From: Erysipelotrichaceae bacterium
GTDB taxonomy: Bacteria > Bacillota_I > Bacilli_A > RFN20 > CAG-826
Direction of reading: 5' to 3'
DNA length: 64,000 nucleotides
Assembly (NCBI GenBank): GCA_015059105.1
Contig: SVBB01000004.1
Coordinates: 69,144 to 133,143 of the forward strand
Shown here: positions 1,643 to 11,493 of the stretch, piece by piece
Numbering within the stretch: the stretch's first letter is position 1
Layout: each line of letters opens with the position of its first letter
Translations under genes and position numbers: made by a program
Notes under the pieces: model-generated
The model's database searches: none
What the model was told of the DNA's origin: nothing
Seen by the model: only the letters and a program-made list of their open reading frames with translations

Positions 1643-1660
1643 GCGTTGACCTATTTTTTT
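1637..1660 (+). terminator. Intrinsic terminator of rpmG
   Basis: AATAGG (1638-1643) pairs with CCTATT (1650-1655) around a 6-nt loop, followed by a T tract. The rpmG stop TAG lies in the left arm. Confidence 0.65.
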
Positions 1661-1666
1661 ATTATT

Positions 1667-2302
1667 ATGATTTCCGTAAAAGCATTTCGATATGATCCGC
1701 GATTTGAACTAATGAGCAACTGCTATGTTGTTTTTGATGCTCATAAGAAATGTTTTATCGTCGATCCATCTTGTAACTATGATGGAATAATTAATTATAT
1801 TAAAGACAATAAGCTTCGTCCCCAGGGGATATTATTGACTCACTGTCATTATGACCATATCAAAGGGGTGGACCGCTTAGTAAAAGCATTTAATATCCCT
1901 GTTTATATCCACGAAGATGATTATGATGGCTTATATGATCCAAAAATTAATTTATCTGATGATGACGGTTTGAAAGTAGTTTTATCTTCTAAAGCTAACA
2001 AGGTCAAAGACTACGATGAAATCAAAGGATTAGAAGAAAATGCATTAGTGATTCATACCCCATATCACACGCCTGGAGGTGTATGCTATTACTTTAGTAA
2101 TAATAAGATGCTTTTTTCTGGTGACTCTCTCTTTTATCGCTCCATTGGAAGAAACGATTTTAAAACCTCTGTTCCGGGCAAAACTAAAGAGTCGATTAAG
2201 AAGATTATGACCCTTCCAGATGATGTAGTTGTCTACCCTGGACACGGCCTAAATACGATAATTGGAGAAGAAAGAAACAAAAATCCGTTTGTTAATAGAT
2301 AA
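1667..2302 (+). CDS. MBL-fold metal-dependent hydrolase (glyoxalase II-like)
   Basis: About 211 aa. The metallo-beta-lactamase metal site is complete: THCHYDHIKG (HxHxDH), a His in the THPxxHTPGG-like segment, FSGDSLFYRSIGR (metal Asp) and a terminal VVYPGHG. This matches the small glyoxalase II / YqgX-type group, which hydrolyses S-acyl-glutathione or bacillithiol-like thioesters or related esters; the substrate cannot be told from sequence. ATG at 1667 is chosen because MISVKAF...SNCYVV aligns with the family N terminus, although it starts just after the rpmG terminator and has no Shine-Dalgarno. The next gene, efp, has its own promoter. Confidence 0.82.
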   Translation: MISVKAFRYDPRFELMSNCYVVFDAHKKCFIVDPSCNYDGIINYIKDNKLRPQGILLTHCHYDHIKGVDRLVKAFNIPVYIHEDDYDGLYDPKINLSDDDGLKVVLSSKANKVKDYDEIKGLEENALVIHTPYHTPGGVCYYFSNNKMLFSGDSLFYRSIGRNDFKTSVPGKTKESIKKIMTLPDDVVVYPGHGLNTIIGEERNKNPFVNR

Positions 2303-2315
2303 AATTTGTTATAAT
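2289..2315 (+). promoter_or_regulatory. Candidate promoter of efp operon
   Basis: TATAAT at 2310-2315 with TTGTTA at 2289-2294 (15-bp spacer, short). It gives a ~28-nt leader containing the GAAAGGA ribosome binding site before the efp ATG at 2350. The -35 overlaps the end of the preceding gene. Confidence 0.5.
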
Positions 2316-2349
2316 AACAAAGTTATAGAAAGAAAGGAAAATAATTAAT

Positions 2350-2907
2350 ATGGTTAATGTTACTGAATTAAGACCTGGCAACTATTTCATAGAAGACGGC
2401 AATATTTACCAAGTCCAAGACATTTTATTAAATAAGACTGCGATGAGAAAAATGGTCGCGAAAGTCAAAGTCCGTAACCTCAGAAGTGGCGCGGTCACTG
2501 AAATGGCGAAGAACTCCGGTTATATGATTGAAACAATCCGCCTCGACAAAAGACAAATGCAATATCTCTACGATACTGGCGATGCTTTATGCTTCATGGA
2601 TCAAGAAACTTATGACCAAATTGAAATCAGCAAAGACAGATTACAGTGGGAAATCCAATTCTTAAAAGGTGATGAAATCGTTGATATCACTTCTTATGAA
2701 GGAGAAATCCTCGGTGTTACTCTTCCAGCGAAAGTCGCTTTAAAAATCACTGACTGCGAACCAGCTATCCGTGGCGATACAGTCAACAAAGCGATGAAAG
2801 ATGCGATTACTGAAACTGGTTTAAAGATCAGAGTTCCATTATTTATCGAAAATGGTGAAGTCGTGCTTGTCCGTACTGATAACGGCGATTACGACGGGAG
2901 AGCCTAA
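2350..2907 (+). CDS. efp: Translation elongation factor P
   Basis: 185 aa, the normal EF-P length. EF-P binds between the P and E sites and relieves ribosome stalling on polyproline. The three OB-like beta-barrel domains are recognisable: the N-terminal KOW-like domain, a central domain (DTGDALCFMDQETYDQ) and a C-terminal domain with GDTVNKAMKDAITETGLKIRVP and NGEVVLVRTDNGDYDGRA, the classic EF-P ending. The modified-loop position near residue 30 lies in the LLNKTAMRK segment, which resembles the Lys-bearing loop of Bacillus EF-P rather than the Arg-type loop. The gene is followed after 2 bp by the UPF0154 gene, so the two are likely co-transcribed. Confidence 0.97.
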   Translation: MVNVTELRPGNYFIEDGNIYQVQDILLNKTAMRKMVAKVKVRNLRSGAVTEMAKNSGYMIETIRLDKRQMQYLYDTGDALCFMDQETYDQIEISKDRLQWEIQFLKGDEIVDITSYEGEILGVTLPAKVALKITDCEPAIRGDTVNKAMKDAITETGLKIRVPLFIENGEVVLVRTDNGDYDGRA

Positions 2908-2909
2908 TA

Positions 2910-3125
2910 ATGGAAATCGGTGTTGCAGTCGGCTTAATCATTGGCGCATTCCTCGTTGGTGCAATTGCAGCGTTCTTCATCACAAGATACTTATTCAAAA
3001 AACAACTTGAAAAGAATCCTCCAATCAACGAAAAGATGATTCGTGTGATGTTCGCACAAATGGGTAGAACTCCAAGCGAAAAACAAATCCGCGAAATCAT
3101 GAGAAACGTCAATAGCCAAAAATAA
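2910..3125 (+). CDS. UPF0154 (YneF-like) small membrane protein
   Basis: 71 aa with one N-terminal transmembrane helix (about residues 5-28, VGLIIGAFLVGAIAAFFITRY) and a conserved cytoplasmic tail, NPPINEKMIRVMFAQMGRTP and SEKQIREIM, which is the UPF0154/YneF signature of Firmicutes. Function is unknown. It is coupled to efp (2-bp gap) and followed by a strong terminator. Confidence 0.9.
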   Translation: MEIGVAVGLIIGAFLVGAIAAFFITRYLFKKQLEKNPPINEKMIRVMFAQMGRTPSEKQIREIMRNVNSQK

Positions 3126-3142
3126 GTTTATTATATAATAAT

Positions 3143-3168
3143 AAAGCATCCAGCAATGGATGCTTTTT
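3143..3168. terminator. Bidirectional intrinsic terminator between efp operon and abiE
   Basis: GCATCCA (3146-3152), GCAA tetraloop, TGGATGC (3157-3163), with A-run on the left and T-run on the right, so it can serve both directions. The T-run contains the stop codon of the abiEii toxin gene. Nearly the same stem recurs at 4858-4880 on the other side of the toxin-antitoxin pair. Confidence 0.85.
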
Positions 3169-4087
3169 ATATATCATATTCTTTTAAGAATTCTAATATT
3201 TCCTTAAGAGCAATTATACATTCGTTGTAAGATACTTTTTCGTACAATAGCAAATAAGTCTTATCAGCATAATCATCTTTATACGAATTTTCTTCGATTA
3301 GTTTTTCTAATACTGTATATAATTTTATTCCTTGCTTTGCAGTGATGCATATTTTGATTTGCTTTCGATATTCATTAACTTCTTCAAATAGCTGTTTTAA
3401 ACCGTCATTTAACGAAACTAGTGGCAAAATCTTGTAAAGGTCATACAAGTGTCTAGAATGACCATCGCATTTATCTCTAAGATAATAATCACATATCGCT
3501 GATGTTTTATCGACGAATGTTCTACTAATATCTTGAACAACAACATCAAATGATTGAAGTTCGTATTTTTCAACTAGATCATATCTATTGATACTTTCAA
3601 GATATTCACCTATAAAAGATTGGATTCTTTTACAAGTAACTGGAAAAGATGGAGTTTGTGCAGCTAATTCAACGATGATTTCATTAATTGCGGTATTGTT
3701 ATCATTGAGAATGCTTTTATACCCGCAATGGAATTGATTGAAATATCGATCGCGACGTAGTTTTTCAGTATTTGTTATATTTAGACCGACTTCTTTAATA
3801 GAGCTAGAGATGCCTCTAAATTTACTGTTTTTAGCATTAACACCAAGTGAGGAATAGGGGACGCTATAAGAAATATCAAGGTCTTCTGAAAAACGATTAA
3901 TCAGTTTATAACATTTTGATAAACATGTTCCACCTTTAAAAATGTAACCCTTTTCTTTAGAAAAAATCTGTTTTAAAAGAAGTGTTTGCCAATAATCTTT
4001 TTCAACATATTTGTTAGTGATATTGAATTGATTTGATGTTGCAATTATTAACGTATGAAAGGAGTCGTAATCATTATCTAAACGCAT
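3167..4087 (-). CDS. abiEii: AbiEii/AbiGii-type nucleotidyltransferase toxin
   Basis: 306 aa. The N-terminal half carries the DUF1814 nucleotidyltransferase core: KGGTCLSK (residues 51-58) and RFSEDLDIS (65-73), the two catalytic blocks of AbiEii toxins; a KDYWQTLLLK segment precedes them, as is usual in the family. Known members are toxins of type IV toxin-antitoxin systems that abort phage infection; some modify tRNA acceptor ends. The start overlaps the antitoxin gene by 14 bp, indicating translational coupling. Specific target unknown. Confidence 0.88.
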   Translation of the reverse strand: MRLDNDYDSFHTLIIATSNQFNITNKYVEKDYWQTLLLKQIFSKEKGYIFKGGTCLSKCYKLINRFSEDLDISYSVPYSSLGVNAKNSKFRGISSSIKEVGLNITNTEKLRRDRYFNQFHCGYKSILNDNNTAINEIIVELAAQTPSFPVTCKRIQSFIGEYLESINRYDLVEKYELQSFDVVVQDISRTFVDKTSAICDYYLRDKCDGHSRHLYDLYKILPLVSLNDGLKQLFEEVNEYRKQIKICITAKQGIKLYTVLEKLIEENSYKDDYADKTYLLLYEKVSYNECIIALKEILEFLKEYDI

Positions 4088-4700
4088 TGATTAATCCACT
4101 TTCTACTATCCTTTTCATTATTTTCACAGGATAAAGTGATATATAGTTTTCAAAATCTGTTTTTGAAAGATTGTCACGAATATATTTTTCAAGTAAAGAA
4201 TAATTCTCATTAACTTCGTCTTTGGTTATTAGATAAAACATATCGAAAAACTGAAGAGCTTTGTAATTAAATCTGTTAATAGTGATTTTGCTCTTTCTTA
4301 CAATTGCTTTTGCATAGCGATATTGAATTAAACGTTTTGAACTAGTGTTGTTGGTTTTAATTTCATATATGGCTGGGACTTGCTGTGATATTCCAATTTG
4401 ATTTAGAAATGTGAGACCAGTGAAGTAACCATACACATCTAAATTAAGTCCGGGAATACCATAATCATTCTTTATATAGCGATGAATAAAAACGTCTTCT
4501 GCAGATAAAACGTCTGGTAGATCACCTTTTAAATCGAAATAATAAACTCCATAACCATCCCGTACTATTTCTCCTTTTTCGGCGGCACGTGAAAGTTCTT
4601 TCCTGATGGCGGTTTTACTTTTACCGCCAATCCTAATATCCTTGACGAATATAGGAGTGGAGTAACCATATACTTCTTTTAAATAAGCGATTGTATTCAT
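4074..4700 (-). CDS. abiEi: AbiEi-type antitoxin / transcriptional repressor
   Basis: 208 aa. The N terminus (about residues 1-60) is a winged-helix region (TAIRKELSRAAEKGEIVRDG, then YGVYYF), as in AbiEi antitoxins of the DUF6088-like group; the remaining domain is of the type that regulates the toxin. AbiEi proteins normally repress their own operon and neutralise AbiEii without a stable complex. Gene order antitoxin-toxin with a 14-bp overlap is canonical. The ATG follows a near-consensus promoter by only 6 nt and there is no Shine-Dalgarno, predicting a leaderless message. Confidence 0.82.
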   Translation of the reverse strand: MNTIAYLKEVYGYSTPIFVKDIRIGGKSKTAIRKELSRAAEKGEIVRDGYGVYYFDLKGDLPDVLSAEDVFIHRYIKNDYGIPGLNLDVYGYFTGLTFLNQIGISQQVPAIYEIKTNNTSSKRLIQYRYAKAIVRKSKITINRFNYKALQFFDMFYLITKDEVNENYSLLEKYIRDNLSKTDFENYISLYPVKIMKRIVESGLINAFR

Positions 4701-4706
4701 GCTTCA

Positions 4707-4735
4707 ATTATACAAAACAATCAATGAAATGTAAA
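4707..4735 (-). promoter_or_regulatory. abiE promoter, strong, leaderless layout
   Basis: On the minus strand: TTTACA (4735-4730, 5 of 6), 17-bp spacer, TATAAT (4712-4707, perfect), then 6 nt to the abiEi ATG. Best-supported leaderless promoter of the window. Confidence 0.75.
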
Positions 4736-4857
4736 TAATGTGACAAAAGCATATTATAATAAATATTATATATTTTTATAAAAATGTGACATATTTGTTT
4801 GATGAGATATAATTTTGATGTGCAGAATTGTATAGTTATATTGTAATTATTAATATG

Positions 4858-4880
4858 AGCATCCTAAGGATGCTTTTTTT
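4858..4880 (+). terminator. Second copy of the GCATCC/GGATGC terminator
   Basis: GCATCC (4859-4864), TAA loop, GGATGC (4868-4873), T tract to 4880. Its T-run is on the plus strand, but no plus-strand gene lies between the efp/UPF0154 operon (ending 3125) and this site. Confidence 0.75.
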
Positions 4881-4915
4881 GATTACCTTTTAAAAGAAGG
4901 AGACTATAATAGTTT

Positions 4916-5998
4916 ATGATGAAAAGCGATTTATTATCTTATTTATCTAATTACGGTGACAAGTCGTTACACGAAGTTCCATTTAATGAAGTGGATGCTT
5001 TGCTGTTTGCCACTTTGTCTTATCCCAAATATCAGGACATTATCAAAGATAATGAGATATGCGACGCTAATAATATTCTCGAACTAATCAAAGAATATGA
5101 CCAATCTTCATTAACAGATAGAAAGAAGCTCAATATCACTTTATTAGAAAAAGTATGTTCTTCAATAAGGTTTAATAATATTAAAGTAACGCATTATCGC
5201 CATTCGATTAATAAAGAACTCAGTGAGCAGTTTCAGGCTGTTTCTTTTGTGTTTGATGAATTCGTCATCGTTTCGTATTGTGGAACGGATAATACGGTTA
5301 TTGGTTTAAAAGAAGACTTAAATATGTCATATCTCACATTTACTCCTTCTGAGATTGATGCGATTAAGTATATCAAAGATATAGAGACTCTTTATAAGGA
5401 TAAAAGACTTATCCTTGTCGGACATTCCAAAGGGGGTAGATTAGCCGTTTCTAGTGCGAAAGCGATAGAGAATAAGGAAATACTGAGAGACGTCTATACT
5501 TTTGATTCTCCAAATTATTCTAGTGGCTTTTATGATAAGGAATATAAAAAGATTGAAAAGAAGATTCATAATTATGTTCCGGAAGATTCAATTGTTGGTC
5601 GTCTTATCAACGAGCCAAAGAATCCGATTATTGTTAAATCGCATAATTCACTTATTCGTCAGCACGATATCTCATCATGGATTATCATAGATAATCATCT
5701 CATCATCAGCGAAAGTGGTTTTAGCAAGCAGTCAAGCAAGATATCAAAGACTCTCAATTTAAACTTAAAGAAATATGATGATGGCACTAAAAAAGAATTC
5801 GCGGATACATTGTTCGGCTTTATCGATAGACTAGAAATCCATGAATTCAAAGGCAAAGAAGAGAACATCAGCTTGCTAAAAGTCGCTATTAAGCGCATCC
5901 CAGAAGAGTGGAAGAAGACTCCTAAGAATGATCGAAAACTGCTTAGGAATATCTTATTAAAAACGATTCAAAATTACTTCTTAAACAAAGAAAACTAG
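4916..5998 (+). CDS. Mbeg1-like (DUF2974) alpha/beta-hydrolase
   Basis: 360 aa. The central region has the lipase-type nucleophile elbow GHSKGGRLA (Ser171), preceded by YCGTDNTVIGLKEDLNMSY, the conserved block of DUF2974/Mbeg1-like proteins (usually RGTD; here CGTD), and followed by YTFDSPN, a segment that normally supports the catalytic Asp. A His near residue 240-250 (SHNSLIRQHDIS) could complete the triad. No signal peptide or membrane segment is seen, so it is probably cytoplasmic. Substrate unknown. The ribosome binding site GAAGGAG (4896-4902) is about 13 nt from the ATG, and a TATAAT (4905-4910) lies 5 nt before it, so the initiation mode is uncertain. Codes towards plsY, with a shared terminator between. 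Confidence 0.75.
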   Translation: MMKSDLLSYLSNYGDKSLHEVPFNEVDALLFATLSYPKYQDIIKDNEICDANNILELIKEYDQSSLTDRKKLNITLLEKVCSSIRFNNIKVTHYRHSINKELSEQFQAVSFVFDEFVIVSYCGTDNTVIGLKEDLNMSYLTFTPSEIDAIKYIKDIETLYKDKRLILVGHSKGGRLAVSSAKAIENKEILRDVYTFDSPNYSSGFYDKEYKKIEKKIHNYVPEDSIVGRLINEPKNPIIVKSHNSLIRQHDISSWIIIDNHLIISESGFSKQSSKISKTLNLNLKKYDDGTKKEFADTLFGFIDRLEIHEFKGKEENISLLKVAIKRIPEEWKKTPKNDRKLLRNILLKTIQNYFLNKEN

Positions 5999-6011
5999 TT
6001 ATTGATAAATA

Positions 6012-6041
6012 AAAGCCGGAGAATAGTGCTTCTCCGACTTT
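6012..6041. terminator. Bidirectional terminator between Mbeg1-like gene and plsY
   Basis: AAGCCGGAGAA and TTCTCCGACTT form a stem with one mismatch (core CGGAGAA 6017-6023 with TTCTCCG 6030-6036), flanked by A and T runs. It serves two convergent genes. Confidence 0.75.
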
Positions 6042-6087
6042 ATATTATAAATAATATAATATCTACTAACTTTCTACTATGTTATTA

Positions 6088-6852
6088 CTATTTCATCCAG
6101 GTGATTTTTCTCTCTTCACCTCTAATGATTCTACCGATATTAGCGTGGTGTCTAGCATCCATAATGATGACCATCGCAGTCACGATGAGAGCGAAATGCC
6201 AAGTTGGATTTAAGCTTGGTCCATACATCACGAACCATTGCCATCCTTGTGGAATGACATTGGCTAAAAGAAGTATTGCCCATGTCCAGACGAAGACTAA
6301 TTGGATTGCGGAATAGATAATCATTGTTAAAGAAACCATTTTTGTTTTCTTTAAAATTGGGAAATAGAAGATACCAGCAGGGACAAAACCTAACCCCCAG
6401 CTCGCTCCTAAGGTAGTTCCCATATAGGCTGAAGCACCTTTACCACCTTTGAATCCGTAGAAGATTGGCCAGCAGTGACCAACTAAACAACCAAATGCGG
6501 CGAGATAATAAACTGGCCATTGAATGATGTAGTTGCTTGCTTCTGCTGAATAATATACAGCAGTAGTTGCTAAAAGTGGTTTTTCACCAAATGGCACAAA
6601 AGTGAGGATAGCCCAGCAGATCCACATTGGTAAGATGGTTTTAAGCATATCGAGAGTGATAACTAATAAACCAAATTTCTTTCCCCAAAGGCGTCCTGCG
6701 TTAGTACCTCCAGCGTTTTTTGAACCGTAATTACGTGGATCTTGGTGAAAAAATACCTTCCCAATAAATATTGAAAAGGAGAAAGAACCACATAAATAAC
6801 CAAATATTAAACAAATAATTGGGACGAAAATATTATATAAAATAATATCCAT
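6088..6852 (-). CDS. plsY: Acyl-phosphate:glycerol-3-phosphate acyltransferase
   Basis: 254-aa integral membrane enzyme of the first step of phospholipid synthesis, transferring an acyl group from acyl-phosphate to glycerol-3-phosphate. PlsY motifs are present: YLCGSFSFSI near the N terminus, DPRNYGSKNAGGTNAGR (motif 1, loop after TM1), LVGHCWPIFYGFKGGKGA (motif 2). About six to seven membrane helices; slightly longer than the typical ~200 aa because of an insertion between TM2 and motif 2. AGGAGG precedes the ATG. Divergent from parE, the same neighbourhood as in Bacillus subtilis, which supports naming the downstream topoisomerase genes parE/parC. Confidence 0.95.
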   Translation of the reverse strand: MDIILYNIFVPIICLIFGYLCGSFSFSIFIGKVFFHQDPRNYGSKNAGGTNAGRLWGKKFGLLVITLDMLKTILPMWICWAILTFVPFGEKPLLATTAVYYSAEASNYIIQWPVYYLAAFGCLVGHCWPIFYGFKGGKGASAYMGTTLGASWGLGFVPAGIFYFPILKKTKMVSLTMIIYSAIQLVFVWTWAILLLANVIPQGWQWFVMYGPSLNPTWHFALIVTAMVIIMDARHHANIGRIIRGEERKITWMK

Positions 6853-6895
6853 CTTTTTTCCTCCTATTGACGTATTTCATTCTACTAAATGTCTT

Positions 6896-6923
6896 TTGAT
6901 TTTCAACCTAAATTTAATATAAT
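6896..6923 (+). promoter_or_regulatory. Candidate promoter of parE-parC
   Basis: TTGATT (6896-6901), 16-bp spacer, TATAAT (6918-6923). It leaves a ~20-nt leader with GGAG before the parE ATG at 6950. Confidence 0.6.
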
Positions 6924-6949
6924 TTATGTTGCAAAAACGGAGAAACGTA

Positions 6950-8884
6950 ATGTCAAATAACACTTATAACGCTGATAGTATCCAAGTTTTACATGGTTTA
7001 GACGCGGTCAGAAAGCGTCCTGGTATGTATATTGGACCAACAAATTCGACTGGTCTGCATCATTTGATATGGGAAATCGTCGGTAACGCCATCGATGAAG
7101 CGATGTGCGGATACGGAAAAACCATTACAGTGACGATTTTTAAAGATGGCAGTTGTGGTGTTCTCGATGAAGGAAGAGGTATTCCAGTTGGCATCAATAA
7201 AGAAGAGGGTAGACCTGCTGTTGAACTCGTTTTCTCCGAACTCCATGCGGGTGGCAAATTCTCAGACTCAGCCTATAAAAATGCTGGTGGACTTCACGGT
7301 GTTGGAGCCGCTGTTACTAATGCCTTAAGCGTCTATTTAGATGTCACTGTTTATAACGATGGTGAGATTTATCATCTCCGCTACGAAAATGGTGGTCACT
7401 TAGTGACCAAACTTGAGAAACTTGGTCCAACTAAGAAAAGAGGAACTTTGGTGAGATTTAAACCAGATCCAGAGATTTTCTCGACTGTGGAATTCAAAGC
7501 GGATGTCATTCAAGATCATCTTCAAGAGAACGCTTTCCTTATCGGTGGAGTGAAATTTATCTTTAACGATGAAAGAACTGGTGAATCCAAAACCTTCTGT
7601 TATGAAAAGGGTTTACAAGAATATATCGCGAATATGAATGGGGAAAAATCTCCATTAACCCCAATCATCCATTTCCATGAATTCGATGAAGATAGCAGAG
7701 TAGAAACTGAAATCTCATTACAATATTGTAATGGTGTCTATGATGAGACCATTTTCTCCTATGCTAACTTGATTAGAACGAGAGATGGTGGTAGCCATGA
7801 AACTGGTTTTAGAAATGGTCTTACTAGAGCAATCAATGATTTCGCGGAAAACAATGGTTTATTAAAAGGCAAAAAGCTTGAAGGCGCGGATATTAGAGAA
7901 GGAATTACTGCGATTATCTCGATTAAAATTCCAGAAGATATCCTTCTTTTCGAAAGCCAAACCAAAGGAAAATTAACTACTCCAGTAGTGACTACTGTCG
8001 TGCAAAATGTCATTTATAATAAGTTAACTTATTATCTCACTGAAAATAAAGAAATCGCATTGGATTTAATTCATAAATGTGTCGCTTCTCAACAAGCGAG
8101 AATGGCGGCGAGAAAAGCAAAAGAAGAAGCGCGAAGCTCTAAAAAAGCGAAACAAGAAGTGATTCTTTCTGATAAACTCACTCCAGCCCAGTCCAAACAG
8201 TACATGTTAAACGAATTATTCATCGTCGAAGGTGATTCCGCTGGTGGTACTGCAAAAAAGGGCAGAGATAGAATCCATCAAGCAATATTACCACTACGTG
8301 GTAAACCACTTAATACTGATTCTGTTTCATTGGATAGATTACTTCAAAATGAAGAATTTGCGACCCTTATTAATACAATCGGCGCGGGCTTTGGTCAAAC
8401 ATTTGATATTTCCGATATTCATTACGGCAAAATCATCATTATGACTGATGCTGATACCGATGGTGCGCATATCCAAACGTTATTATTAACGTTCTTCTAT
8501 AAATACATGAAACAACTCGTGACTGCTGGTCATATCTATATCGCTGTCCCACCTTTGTACCGCGTTTTTAAAGAAGAGGGGCATAAAAAGATTCAACAGT
8601 ACGCTTGGAGTGATGAAGAACTAGAAATAGCGAAGAAAAAAGTCGGCGCGGGTTATAAAATTAACAGATACAAGGGTCTTGGAGAAATGGACGCCATTCA
8701 ACTTAAAGAAACGACGATGGATCCAAGAACTAGACTTCTTGTAAAAGTGGATATTGAAGATCCTTTTCTCGTAGAGAAACGTATCAATGTTTTAATGGGC
8801 AGAGATGCTTCTTTACGTCGTAAATGGGTGGAAGATAATGTCGACTTTAACACCGTTGATACATTCTTGAAGGAGGTCAAATAA
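6950..8884 (+). CDS. parE: DNA topoisomerase IV subunit B
   Basis: 644-aa type IIA ATPase subunit. GHKL ATPase domain: Glu42, Asn46, and LDEGRGIPVG with Asp73 and Arg76; transducer; TOPRIM domain with EGDSAGGTAK, PLRGKPLN and DADTDGAH for Mg2+ binding. ATG at 6950 is chosen over an in-frame ATG at 6926 because GGAG lies 7 nt upstream and MSNNTYNADSIQVL fits the family. Residue 45, the Asp of the usual EVVDN motif, is Gly (EIVGNAIDEA). The name parE rather than gyrB rests on adjacency to plsY and the parC partner. It overlaps parC by 1 bp. Confidence 0.93.
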   Translation: MSNNTYNADSIQVLHGLDAVRKRPGMYIGPTNSTGLHHLIWEIVGNAIDEAMCGYGKTITVTIFKDGSCGVLDEGRGIPVGINKEEGRPAVELVFSELHAGGKFSDSAYKNAGGLHGVGAAVTNALSVYLDVTVYNDGEIYHLRYENGGHLVTKLEKLGPTKKRGTLVRFKPDPEIFSTVEFKADVIQDHLQENAFLIGGVKFIFNDERTGESKTFCYEKGLQEYIANMNGEKSPLTPIIHFHEFDEDSRVETEISLQYCNGVYDETIFSYANLIRTRDGGSHETGFRNGLTRAINDFAENNGLLKGKKLEGADIREGITAIISIKIPEDILLFESQTKGKLTTPVVTTVVQNVIYNKLTYYLTENKEIALDLIHKCVASQQARMAARKAKEEARSSKKAKQEVILSDKLTPAQSKQYMLNELFIVEGDSAGGTAKKGRDRIHQAILPLRGKPLNTDSVSLDRLLQNEEFATLINTIGAGFGQTFDISDIHYGKIIIMTDADTDGAHIQTLLLTFFYKYMKQLVTAGHIYIAVPPLYRVFKEEGHKKIQQYAWSDEELEIAKKKVGAGYKINRYKGLGEMDAIQLKETTMDPRTRLLVKVDIEDPFLVEKRINVLMGRDASLRRKWVEDNVDFNTVDTFLKEVK

Positions 8885-11493
8885 TGGCTAAGAAAGTTAA
8901 CCAAGAAGAACTTGAACAAATTCAAGAAAATATCTCTGTTGAACCCCTTGAAGAAGTAATGGGTGACCGTTATGCGACATATGCAAAATACGTCATTCAA
9001 GACCGTGCTATCCCAGATGTTAGAGATGGGATGAAGCCAGTGCAAAGACGTATCATTTTCTCGATGTATAAAAGTGGTAACACTTTTAATAAACCAACGA
9101 AGAAATGCGCTCATACAGTTGGGGCGGTCATGGGTACTTATCACCCACATGGCGATTCTTCCATCTATGAAGCGTTAGCAAGAATGAGTCAAGATTGGAA
9201 AGTTAGATACCCACTTGTAGATTTCCAAGGTAATAATGGTTCTATCGATGGTGACTCTCCAGCCGCTTATCGTTATACTGAATCCCGTTTATCAGAATTA
9301 TCCAATGAATTAGTCCGCGATATCGAAAAGAACACTGTCGATATGCAGCTTAACTTCGATGATACAGAACTTGAACCTACAGTTTTACCAGCGAGATTCC
9401 CAAATCTTTTAGTGAATGGTACTGAAGGTATCGCTGTTGCATTAGCAACAGAAATCCCACCTCACAACCTAAAAGAAGTGATTGAGGCGATTATTTATCG
9501 CATTGGACATAAAACTGCAACTACCCAAGATTTAAGACAGTTTGTGCTTGGTCCAGACTTCCCAGGTGGTGGATTTATCTATCAAAGTGGTGGTTTAGAT
9601 GCGATTTATGAAACAGGTAGAGGACGTATTGAAGTTGCTTCTAAAGCGGAATTCGTCACTAACAAAGATAATCAACAAATCATCATTACTGAACTCCCAT
9701 ATAAAGCGGTGAAAATCAATACTGTCTATGAAATAGACAAGATTCGTCATTCCAAAGCTATTGATGGCATCATTGAAGTGAGAGATGAATCCGACTATAA
9801 AGGAATTAGAATCGTTGTCGATGTTAAAAAAGAAGCAAAAATTGACCTCATTTGGAACTATTTATTAAACAAAACATCACTTCAAACCAGTTATTCCGCG
9901 AATATGGTCGCGATTGTTAACGGTCGTCCGAGAACCCTTTCTTTATTAGAATTTGTCGACGCCTATATCGCTCACCAAGTGGATATTGTGACCCGTAAAT
10001 CAAGGTTTGATTTAAATAAATTTGAAAACAGACTTCATATCGTCGATGGATTAATCTTAGCCTCCCTTAACATCAATGAAGTTGTGGAAATCATCCGTAA
10101 GAGTAAAGATAAGGCTGATTCTAAAGTCAATTTGATGAATCGCTATGACTTTTCTAACGAACAAGCAGAAGCGATTGTGACGATGCCTTTATATAAATTA
10201 AGCCATACTGATGAAGAGATTCTTCTCAAAGAGAAGAAGCAATTAGAAGATGATATCGCGGAACTCAAAGAAATCCTCGCTGATCCAAATAAACTCAATC
10301 GCGTTTTAGTGAAGGATTTAAAAGCAATCGCGGATAAATATGGGGATGAAAGAAGAACCCAAATCATCGAAAAAGGTGAAACTAAACCAATTGATAAGCG
10401 TGAGCTTATCGCTAGAGAAGATGTGATGATTGCTGTCACCCATGATGGTTATATCAAACGCAGCTCCATCAAATCATATAAAAGCAGTGAATCTCTCCCT
10501 GGCGTGAAAGATTCTGACGCTCTTCTCCATATTGGAATGGCGAATACTATCGATTATCTTGTTTGTTTTACAAACAAAGGTAATTATATTGTCGTTCCAG
10601 TCCATAAATTAACAGAGAATAGATGGAAAGATGAAGGAACTCATATCAATGATTTCACGACATTAGGGCAAGGAGAAAAGCTTATTAAAGCTTTCGTCAT
10701 AAAAGAACTTAGAAATGATCTCTATTTCGCCGTTTTAAGCAAACTTGGACAAATCAAACGTTTCCCTGTTTCTGATATCGATGTCAGCAAGAAATCACGT
10801 CCTCAAAGAGCGATGCGTATTCTTAATTCCGACTTAGTAGTGGGCGTAGAATTATTGAGCGGTAACAGCAACTTATTAGTTATAACTAATAATGGTTTTG
10901 CTTCTTACTATAATGAAAACGAATTATCCGTCGTTTCAGCAAAAGCTGGTGGTGTGAAAGCAATGGGCAATATGCTCGGCGGGCAAGCCACTGCATTATT
11001 AGCTTTTGAAGAAAGCGAAAGAGGGAAAGTCGCTTTATTTACAGATAAAGGACATGTGCGTGTGTTTGACGCGTATAAGCTTCCTTTAACAAATAGATTA
11101 GGGAGAGCGAATATCGTCTGTCAATCCTTTAAAAACGATGTTCATAAAGTCGTCTCTGCGGTGAAGATTGGTAGAGCTGATTTACTTAGAGTAAATCTCC
11201 ACTTGAATAATCTCTCTTCAATGATCTATGAAATGGATGACTTTAGAATTACTGAAGCACAGAATGCAAAGAAGAATATTTCTACTCCAGCGAAGACTTT
11301 AATCCTTAGAGCGTTACCATTTGAAGAACTAATAACAATCGATAAAAACACGATTTCTCATCCAATTGTCCTTAAAGAACCACGTATTAAAAAGCCTGTT
11401 GAAGAAGGACAAATAGCGGAAGAAAAGGTAAAACCAGAGGGTGAAGAGAAAGAGCAAATCGAACAGATGTCAATCTTCGATGACCTCGATTAA
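8884..11493 (+). CDS. parC: DNA topoisomerase IV subunit A
   Basis: 869-aa DNA-cleaving subunit that decatenates replicated chromosomes with ParE. The winged-helix region holds Arg-Tyr131 in AAYRYTE, the catalytic tyrosine; HPHGDSSIYE contains Ser92 and Glu96, the positions mutated in quinolone resistance, both in their susceptible state. Coiled-coil and dimer region in the middle, C-terminal beta-pinwheel blades from about residue 500, and an acidic tail (EEGQIAEEKVKPEGEEKE). Starts at the TAATG overlap with parE. Confidence 0.94.
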   Translation: MAKKVNQEELEQIQENISVEPLEEVMGDRYATYAKYVIQDRAIPDVRDGMKPVQRRIIFSMYKSGNTFNKPTKKCAHTVGAVMGTYHPHGDSSIYEALARMSQDWKVRYPLVDFQGNNGSIDGDSPAAYRYTESRLSELSNELVRDIEKNTVDMQLNFDDTELEPTVLPARFPNLLVNGTEGIAVALATEIPPHNLKEVIEAIIYRIGHKTATTQDLRQFVLGPDFPGGGFIYQSGGLDAIYETGRGRIEVASKAEFVTNKDNQQIIITELPYKAVKINTVYEIDKIRHSKAIDGIIEVRDESDYKGIRIVVDVKKEAKIDLIWNYLLNKTSLQTSYSANMVAIVNGRPRTLSLLEFVDAYIAHQVDIVTRKSRFDLNKFENRLHIVDGLILASLNINEVVEIIRKSKDKADSKVNLMNRYDFSNEQAEAIVTMPLYKLSHTDEEILLKEKKQLEDDIAELKEILADPNKLNRVLVKDLKAIADKYGDERRTQIIEKGETKPIDKRELIAREDVMIAVTHDGYIKRSSIKSYKSSESLPGVKDSDALLHIGMANTIDYLVCFTNKGNYIVVPVHKLTENRWKDEGTHINDFTTLGQGEKLIKAFVIKELRNDLYFAVLSKLGQIKRFPVSDIDVSKKSRPQRAMRILNSDLVVGVELLSGNSNLLVITNNGFASYYNENELSVVSAKAGGVKAMGNMLGGQATALLAFEESERGKVALFTDKGHVRVFDAYKLPLTNRLGRANIVCQSFKNDVHKVVSAVKIGRADLLRVNLHLNNLSSMIYEMDDFRITEAQNAKKNISTPAKTLILRALPFEELITIDKNTISHPIVLKEPRIKKPVEEGQIAEEKVKPEGEEKEQIEQMSIFDDLD

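Follow-up and report, generated by a model that had tools for sequence, protein, structure and literature searches.

An abiE toxin–antitoxin operon separates the efp–UPF0154 operon from a hydrolase gene in the window (the whole stretch of 64,000 nucleotides that was analysed) and lies between two intrinsic terminators that share a stem. In the only other genus member compared (G001), abiE is absent, the UPF0154 and hydrolase genes are directly adjacent, and a single hairpin of this kind stands at the junction. The reading we prefer, at a probability of roughly 0.55, is that abiE was acquired at this junction with duplication of a short terminator. Counting for acquisition are the hairpin's occurrence at only two places in the genome, its single copy at the matching junction of G001, the kept gene order, the 3′ flank, GC3, the patchiness of abiE, and the lack of a GCATCC stem in the stretches read at 28 UPF0154 loci outside the genus. 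Counting against it are the unlike loops and tails, the 5′ flanks, the 3′-flank match of hairpin 1, the counts of terminator pairs that share a stem core, the reversed control pattern, a genus represented by two genomes, and 0/19 other abiE loci with a matching hairpin pair.

Under acquisition, the junction between the efp–UPF0154 operon and the hydrolase gene would once have held one GCATCC-stem intrinsic terminator, as it does in G001, and hairpins 1 and 2 would share descent with that terminator. The abiE unit that now occupies the junction would have been gained there, the short terminator being copied in the process. Hairpin 2 would have stayed just before the hydrolase gene, which it may insulate, and hairpin 1 would have stayed past the UPF0154 stop, where its structure suggests that it could end transcription on both strands, that of efp on the plus strand and that of abiE on the minus strand.

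The window's own genome (G000) comprises 1,503,442 bases (1.50 Mb) in 26 contigs, and G001 is 89% complete, with the junction itself covered. A scan of genome contigs returned, besides what appears to be G001 itself, one 49% relative, so it added no third genus member. The features of the junction are collected in Table 1.

Table 1. Features at and around the abiE junction, in window coordinates.
Feature	Position	Strand	Basis
efp, elongation factor P	2350..2907	+	Pfam EFP domains; G001 identity 97%
UPF0154 gene, immediately 3′ of efp	2910..3125	+	Pfam UPF0154, E 2.9e-28; G001 identity 90%
Hairpin 1, intrinsic terminator	3143..3166	terminator-like on both strands	terminator scan, folding
abiEii, nucleotidyltransferase toxin, type IV toxin–antitoxin	3167..4087	-	Pfam AbiEii 2.5e-21; PADLOC AbiEii 3.3e-74
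abiEi, cognate antitoxin, presumed autorepressor	4074..4700	-	PADLOC AbiEi 7.1e-45
abiE promoter-like TTTACA-17-TATAAT	4707..4735	-	consensus matches 11/12
Two TGTCAC boxes, candidate AbiEi operators	4740..4791 (plus-strand GTGACA 4740-4745, 4786-4791)	-	common to 6 loci; binding predicted
Hairpin 2, intrinsic terminator, loop TAA	4857..4875	+	terminator scan, folding; G001 position and 3′ flank
TATAAT before hydrolase gene, possible -10 box	4905..4910	+	TATAAT at matching G001 place
Mbeg1-like alpha/beta hydrolase gene, right neighbour of junction	4916..5998	+	Pfam Mbeg1-like 2e-55; G001 identity 68%

Both hairpins have a 7-bp stem, AGCATCC/GGATGCT, followed by a T-run. Hairpin 1 reads AAAGCATCC-AGCAAT-GGATGCTTT and then TTATATAT; in its fold, which reaches −14.8 kcal/mol (z −5.1; 0/200 shuffles equally good), the A and T at the ends of the AGCAAT loop pair too. 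It starts 17 nt past the UPF0154 stop, its other end abuts the abiEii stop codon, and in the terminator scan its minus-strand T-run is weaker than its plus-strand one. Hairpin 2, which reads GAGCATCC-TAA-GGATGCTT and then TTTTTGAT, folds at −11.4 kcal/mol (z −3.6; 1/200 shuffles equally good) and is oriented as a terminator for the plus strand. Since the simple terminator scan lists 17 sites over 12 kb where shuffled sequence yields 6.7, a single match in it carries little weight.

The ORFs of at least 50 aa lying wholly between the hairpins are abiEi, abiEii, and one 51-aa ORF that overlaps abiEii. The window ORF list contains no plus-strand ORF of that size there, which leaves hairpin 2 without a listed plus-strand gene whose transcripts it could end. 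The initial annotation had described an AbiE pair flanked by two similar terminators, the second facing plus-strand transcripts with no plus-strand gene back to the efp operon, and both points are confirmed at the coordinates of Table 1. It had also called the hairpins near-identical, which is true of the stem and not of the loops (AGCAAT and TAA) or tails; because these differ, the two are not a fresh literal duplicate.

G001 keeps the gene order of the window from 1646 to 11493, over seven genes (MBL, efp, UPF0154, hydrolase, plsY, parE, and parC; the names MBL, ispG, plsY, parE, and parC were assigned by reading the sequences alone), and a search of the family genomes gave no AbiEii match in it. 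Its junction hairpin, GCATCC-TTT-GGATGC, is the sole copy in that genome. The distance from the UPF0154 stop to the hairpin is 28 nt, compared with 20 nt for hairpin 1, and that from the stem to the hydrolase ATG is 41 nt, compared with 42 nt for hairpin 2. We assessed the non-coding flanks by alignment against 3000 Euler shuffles. Aligned with its counterpart at hairpin 2, the 3′ flank in G001 scores 36 (shuffle mean 19.7; 2/3000 shuffles as good). With its counterpart at hairpin 1 it also scores 36 (24.2; 13/3000, or 0.0043), in part owing to the T-run at the start of both flanks. The 5′ non-coding flank gave no significant alignment with either (fraction of shuffles as good 0.79 for hairpin 1 and 0.12 for hairpin 2).

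Because the 3′ flank in G001 fits hairpin 2 best, and the G001 hairpin follows the UPF0154 stop as hairpin 1 does, one hairpin appears to be extra, and hairpin 2 was probably once the efp-operon terminator, now displaced and separated from that operon by abiE. Since G001 lacks both the unit and a second hairpin, the surplus hairpin probably marks the entry point of abiE, or its loss in G001. The initial annotation had proposed looking in relatives without abiE for an empty site with a single hairpin rather than two; this one relative has it. Its proposal that a cassette was inserted at, or duplicated, the efp-operon terminator is partly supported by this empty site; the idea of a fresh duplicate does not hold given the loops and tails, and a deletion would fit too.

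Whether the two stems could agree by accident depends on how often such stems occur. The pattern GCATCCN{3,12}GGATGC has two matches in the window, compared with 0.02 expected, and occurs at two places in the whole G000 genome, both at abiE; a control pattern read backwards occurs at one place. Given that control, the genome total of two is unremarkable, and the remarkable part is the closeness of the copies: by simple arithmetic, two lone copies would fall within 1.7 kb of each other by chance in ∼0.2% of cases. With only these two places in G000, a common terminator stem of this genome, the objection that the initial annotation had foreseen, is rejected. With loops of 3–8, the pattern is present in 10/57 family genomes, G000 and G001 included, and is a single copy in 7 of these 10. 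Sharing of the stem core was also counted among candidate terminators. In the window alone, 1/120 pairs share it, namely hairpins 1 and 2. Among 71 candidates, a 6-bp stem core is shared by 48/2408 between-locus pairs, a figure raised by related UPF0154 terminators within the set, and by 2/77 within-locus pairs; among pairs within 2.5 kb the count is 2/22 (hairpins 1 and 2, and one pair in L125). From these pair counts, chance sharing of the stem seems unlikely, though not negligible.

It is accordingly improbable, in our estimate, that abiE brought or evolved a terminator of its own whose stem matches that of the efp terminator by accident. Such a coincidence would draw on the 48 between-locus pairs, on the close pair in L125, whose hairpins both lie on the same side of abiE, and on the distant abiEii of L078, which ends in a TATCC/GGATA hairpin. 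It has to contend with the exact hairpin occurring nowhere else in G000, with the few family genomes that have any copy, and with the 120 nt past the abiEii stop at 29 other loci, none of which contains GCATCC/GGATGC. The absence of the stem from these 29 3′ ends also led us to reject a family-wide abiE terminator.

Instead of being a leftover terminator, hairpin 2 might serve the hydrolase mRNA as a 5′ attenuator or leader element, an option to which we give hardly any credence. A promoter-like GTGACA-16-TATAAT on the plus strand at 4786–4813 would feed a very short transcript into hairpin 2, where it would end. However, a TATAAT stands shortly upstream of the hydrolase start in both genomes, 29 nt past the end of hairpin 2 in G000, and at the matching place in G001 it falls between hairpin and start codon; hairpin 2 therefore probably lies upstream of the hydrolase transcript start. 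This TATAAT has no good −35 that we could recognise and is absent from the promoter-scan list. Also against an attenuator, the upstream regions read in L111–L115 contain no such plus-strand TATAAT at that distal-box spacing, and Rfam returned three matches only (E 0.2 to 0.81), two of them covering the hairpins and all far under gathering scores.

Elsewhere in the family, a matching hairpin pair across the abiE operon was found at 0/19 other abiE loci, chosen, mostly as the best, from 39 other AbiEii match rows (L115 and L123 lack one flank). The test took stems of at least 6 pairs with at least 4 G–C, so weaker hairpins fall outside it. A general terminator-duplication mechanism was therefore not seen at these loci, and a general mobility mechanism is disfavoured. 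For UPF0154 outside the genus, we compared the best 28 of 133 further matching genomes: a terminator is listed at 27/28 loci and at least two hairpins at 11, and the stretches read contain no GCATCC stem and no stem occurring twice. With no repeat of the duplicated hairpin at these 28 UPF0154 loci or the 19 abiE loci, the pattern looks local. No recurrent flanking repeat was seen at the 19 other abiE loci, nor at a second abiE locus of G000 (L110). Searches for mobile carriers gave no relative in viral contigs and only matches of <60% identity in plasmids (230 records) and phages (5 records). Between the hairpins, no recombinase gene was found among ORFs of at least 50 aa, and no ORF other than the abiE genes is of integrase or transposase size.

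The lone hairpin of G001 fits insertion with terminator duplication and deletion between repeats alike. In the latter case, the genus ancestor would already have carried abiE between two GCATCC hairpins, and recombination or slippage between these short repeats would have left one in G001; we regard this as possible, if doubtful. The single hairpin does sit where a deletion product is expected, with the UPF0154 gene on one side and the hydrolase upstream region on the other, but two terminators with like stems must still have arisen beforehand, and no such pair was seen at the 28 UPF0154 loci outside the genus. Gain of abiE is favoured by its patchy family distribution (AbiEii matched in 32/146 family genomes) together with its low GC3 (0.21–0.24 in the abiE genes vs 0.31–0.43 in the eight neighbouring genes measured).

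The second abiE operon, on contig C26 of G000, is likewise absent from G001, where contig C11 matches the sequence on either side. Beside this operon (L110, 3142–3396) lies a C-terminal phosphoglycerate-mutase fragment of 84 aa, residues 27–81 of which match positions 185–239 of the 248-position family model; in G001 apparently just its last codons are left. The comparison hints at loss of abiE in G001 at this second locus, which would favour deletion at the first, but the hint is weak: the left-hand match to G001 is 77 bases only, the G001 sequence beyond it is unlike, and the fragment is itself truncated in G000. The abiEii stop at L110 also adjoins a host terminator, and no hairpin is duplicated there.

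In deletion or insertion between short direct repeats, a repeat flanks the variable segment and is present as a single copy in the other state. The abiE site is alike in having a repeat on each side of abiE and one copy in G001, and unlike in that its repeat is a terminator hairpin whose copies agree in stem and T-run only. Some mobile elements, such as group IIC introns, target terminators; the abiE site similarly adjoins an intrinsic terminator, but no intron, integrase, or transposase was seen between the hairpins. The portions of the literature consulted, which deal with AbiE and with insertion at terminators, contain no report of abiE between twin terminators. Host intrinsic terminators could conceivably capture small defence cassettes, which would enter at the hairpin, copy it, and need no recombinase of their own; we think this highly unlikely, and if it were true a cassette would arrive transcriptionally insulated on both sides. 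The locus shows a defence operon turning over in the ordinary way, at a site where its presence or absence is clear and an orphan terminator is left as a mark. An orphan with its neighbour's rare stem is a legible trace that a bacterium with a small genome has gained or lost genes, and like-stemmed orphans may be usable for finding other turnover sites. About AbiE itself they tell little new.

The operon has the make-up of an AbiE type IV system. AbiEii matches Pfam PF08843 with 77.2 bits (cut-off 22.5) and has no NCBIfam match at 0.01; its motifs I and II follow hG[G/S]-x15-DhD, with GG-x15-DLD intact (GGTCLSKCYKLINRFSEDLD at residue 52). The abiEi gene lies just upstream in the same operon, overlaps abiEii by 14 nt, and encodes a COG5340-type antitoxin according to PADLOC, with no Pfam match at 1e-3 and no NCBIfam match at 0.01. 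The sections consulted of two papers on AbiE (AbiEi/AbiEii, COG5340/COG2253) describe the same antitoxin-then-toxin bicistron, a DUF1814/AbiEii nucleotidyltransferase with GG-x15-DhD, and boxes repeated upstream of abiEi, as well as autorepression by AbiEi through promoter repeats in Streptococcus agalactiae and by a related antitoxin in Mycobacterium tuberculosis (PMC7319586, PMC3985639). By analogy, the unit would act as an ordinary AbiE, with AbiEi repressing its own promoter and neutralising the AbiEii toxin. The layouts differ in that, according to the same sections, two 23-bp inverted repeats 3 bp apart span −35, −10, and +1 in S. agalactiae (PMC3985639, PMC7319586), whereas the TGTCAC boxes of the window lie upstream of −35, 46 nt apart start to start.

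A further difference from the known AbiE system is that abiEi of the window appears leaderless: its mRNA probably has no leader because the −10 box (TATAAT) ends 6 nt short of the ATG, a layout similar in relatives. An exact TATAAT begins 12–14 nt before the abiEi start in 8/11 loci with AbiEi identity >41%, the window included, while L120 and L128, which are more distant, carry a GGAGG site ahead of abiEi. The TGTCAC box pair (35 to 51 nt start to start) with TTTACA upstream of abiEi is common to the window and L111–L115, four of these five loci coming from a single genus. L110, L116, L117, and L118 instead have TGTTAT or TGTTAC beside a TTATACC-GGTATAA inverted repeat. In L120 and L128 (G084 and G112, of one genus), abiEii is interrupted by stop codons and neighbouring ORFs are of matching size, as in decaying abiE copies.
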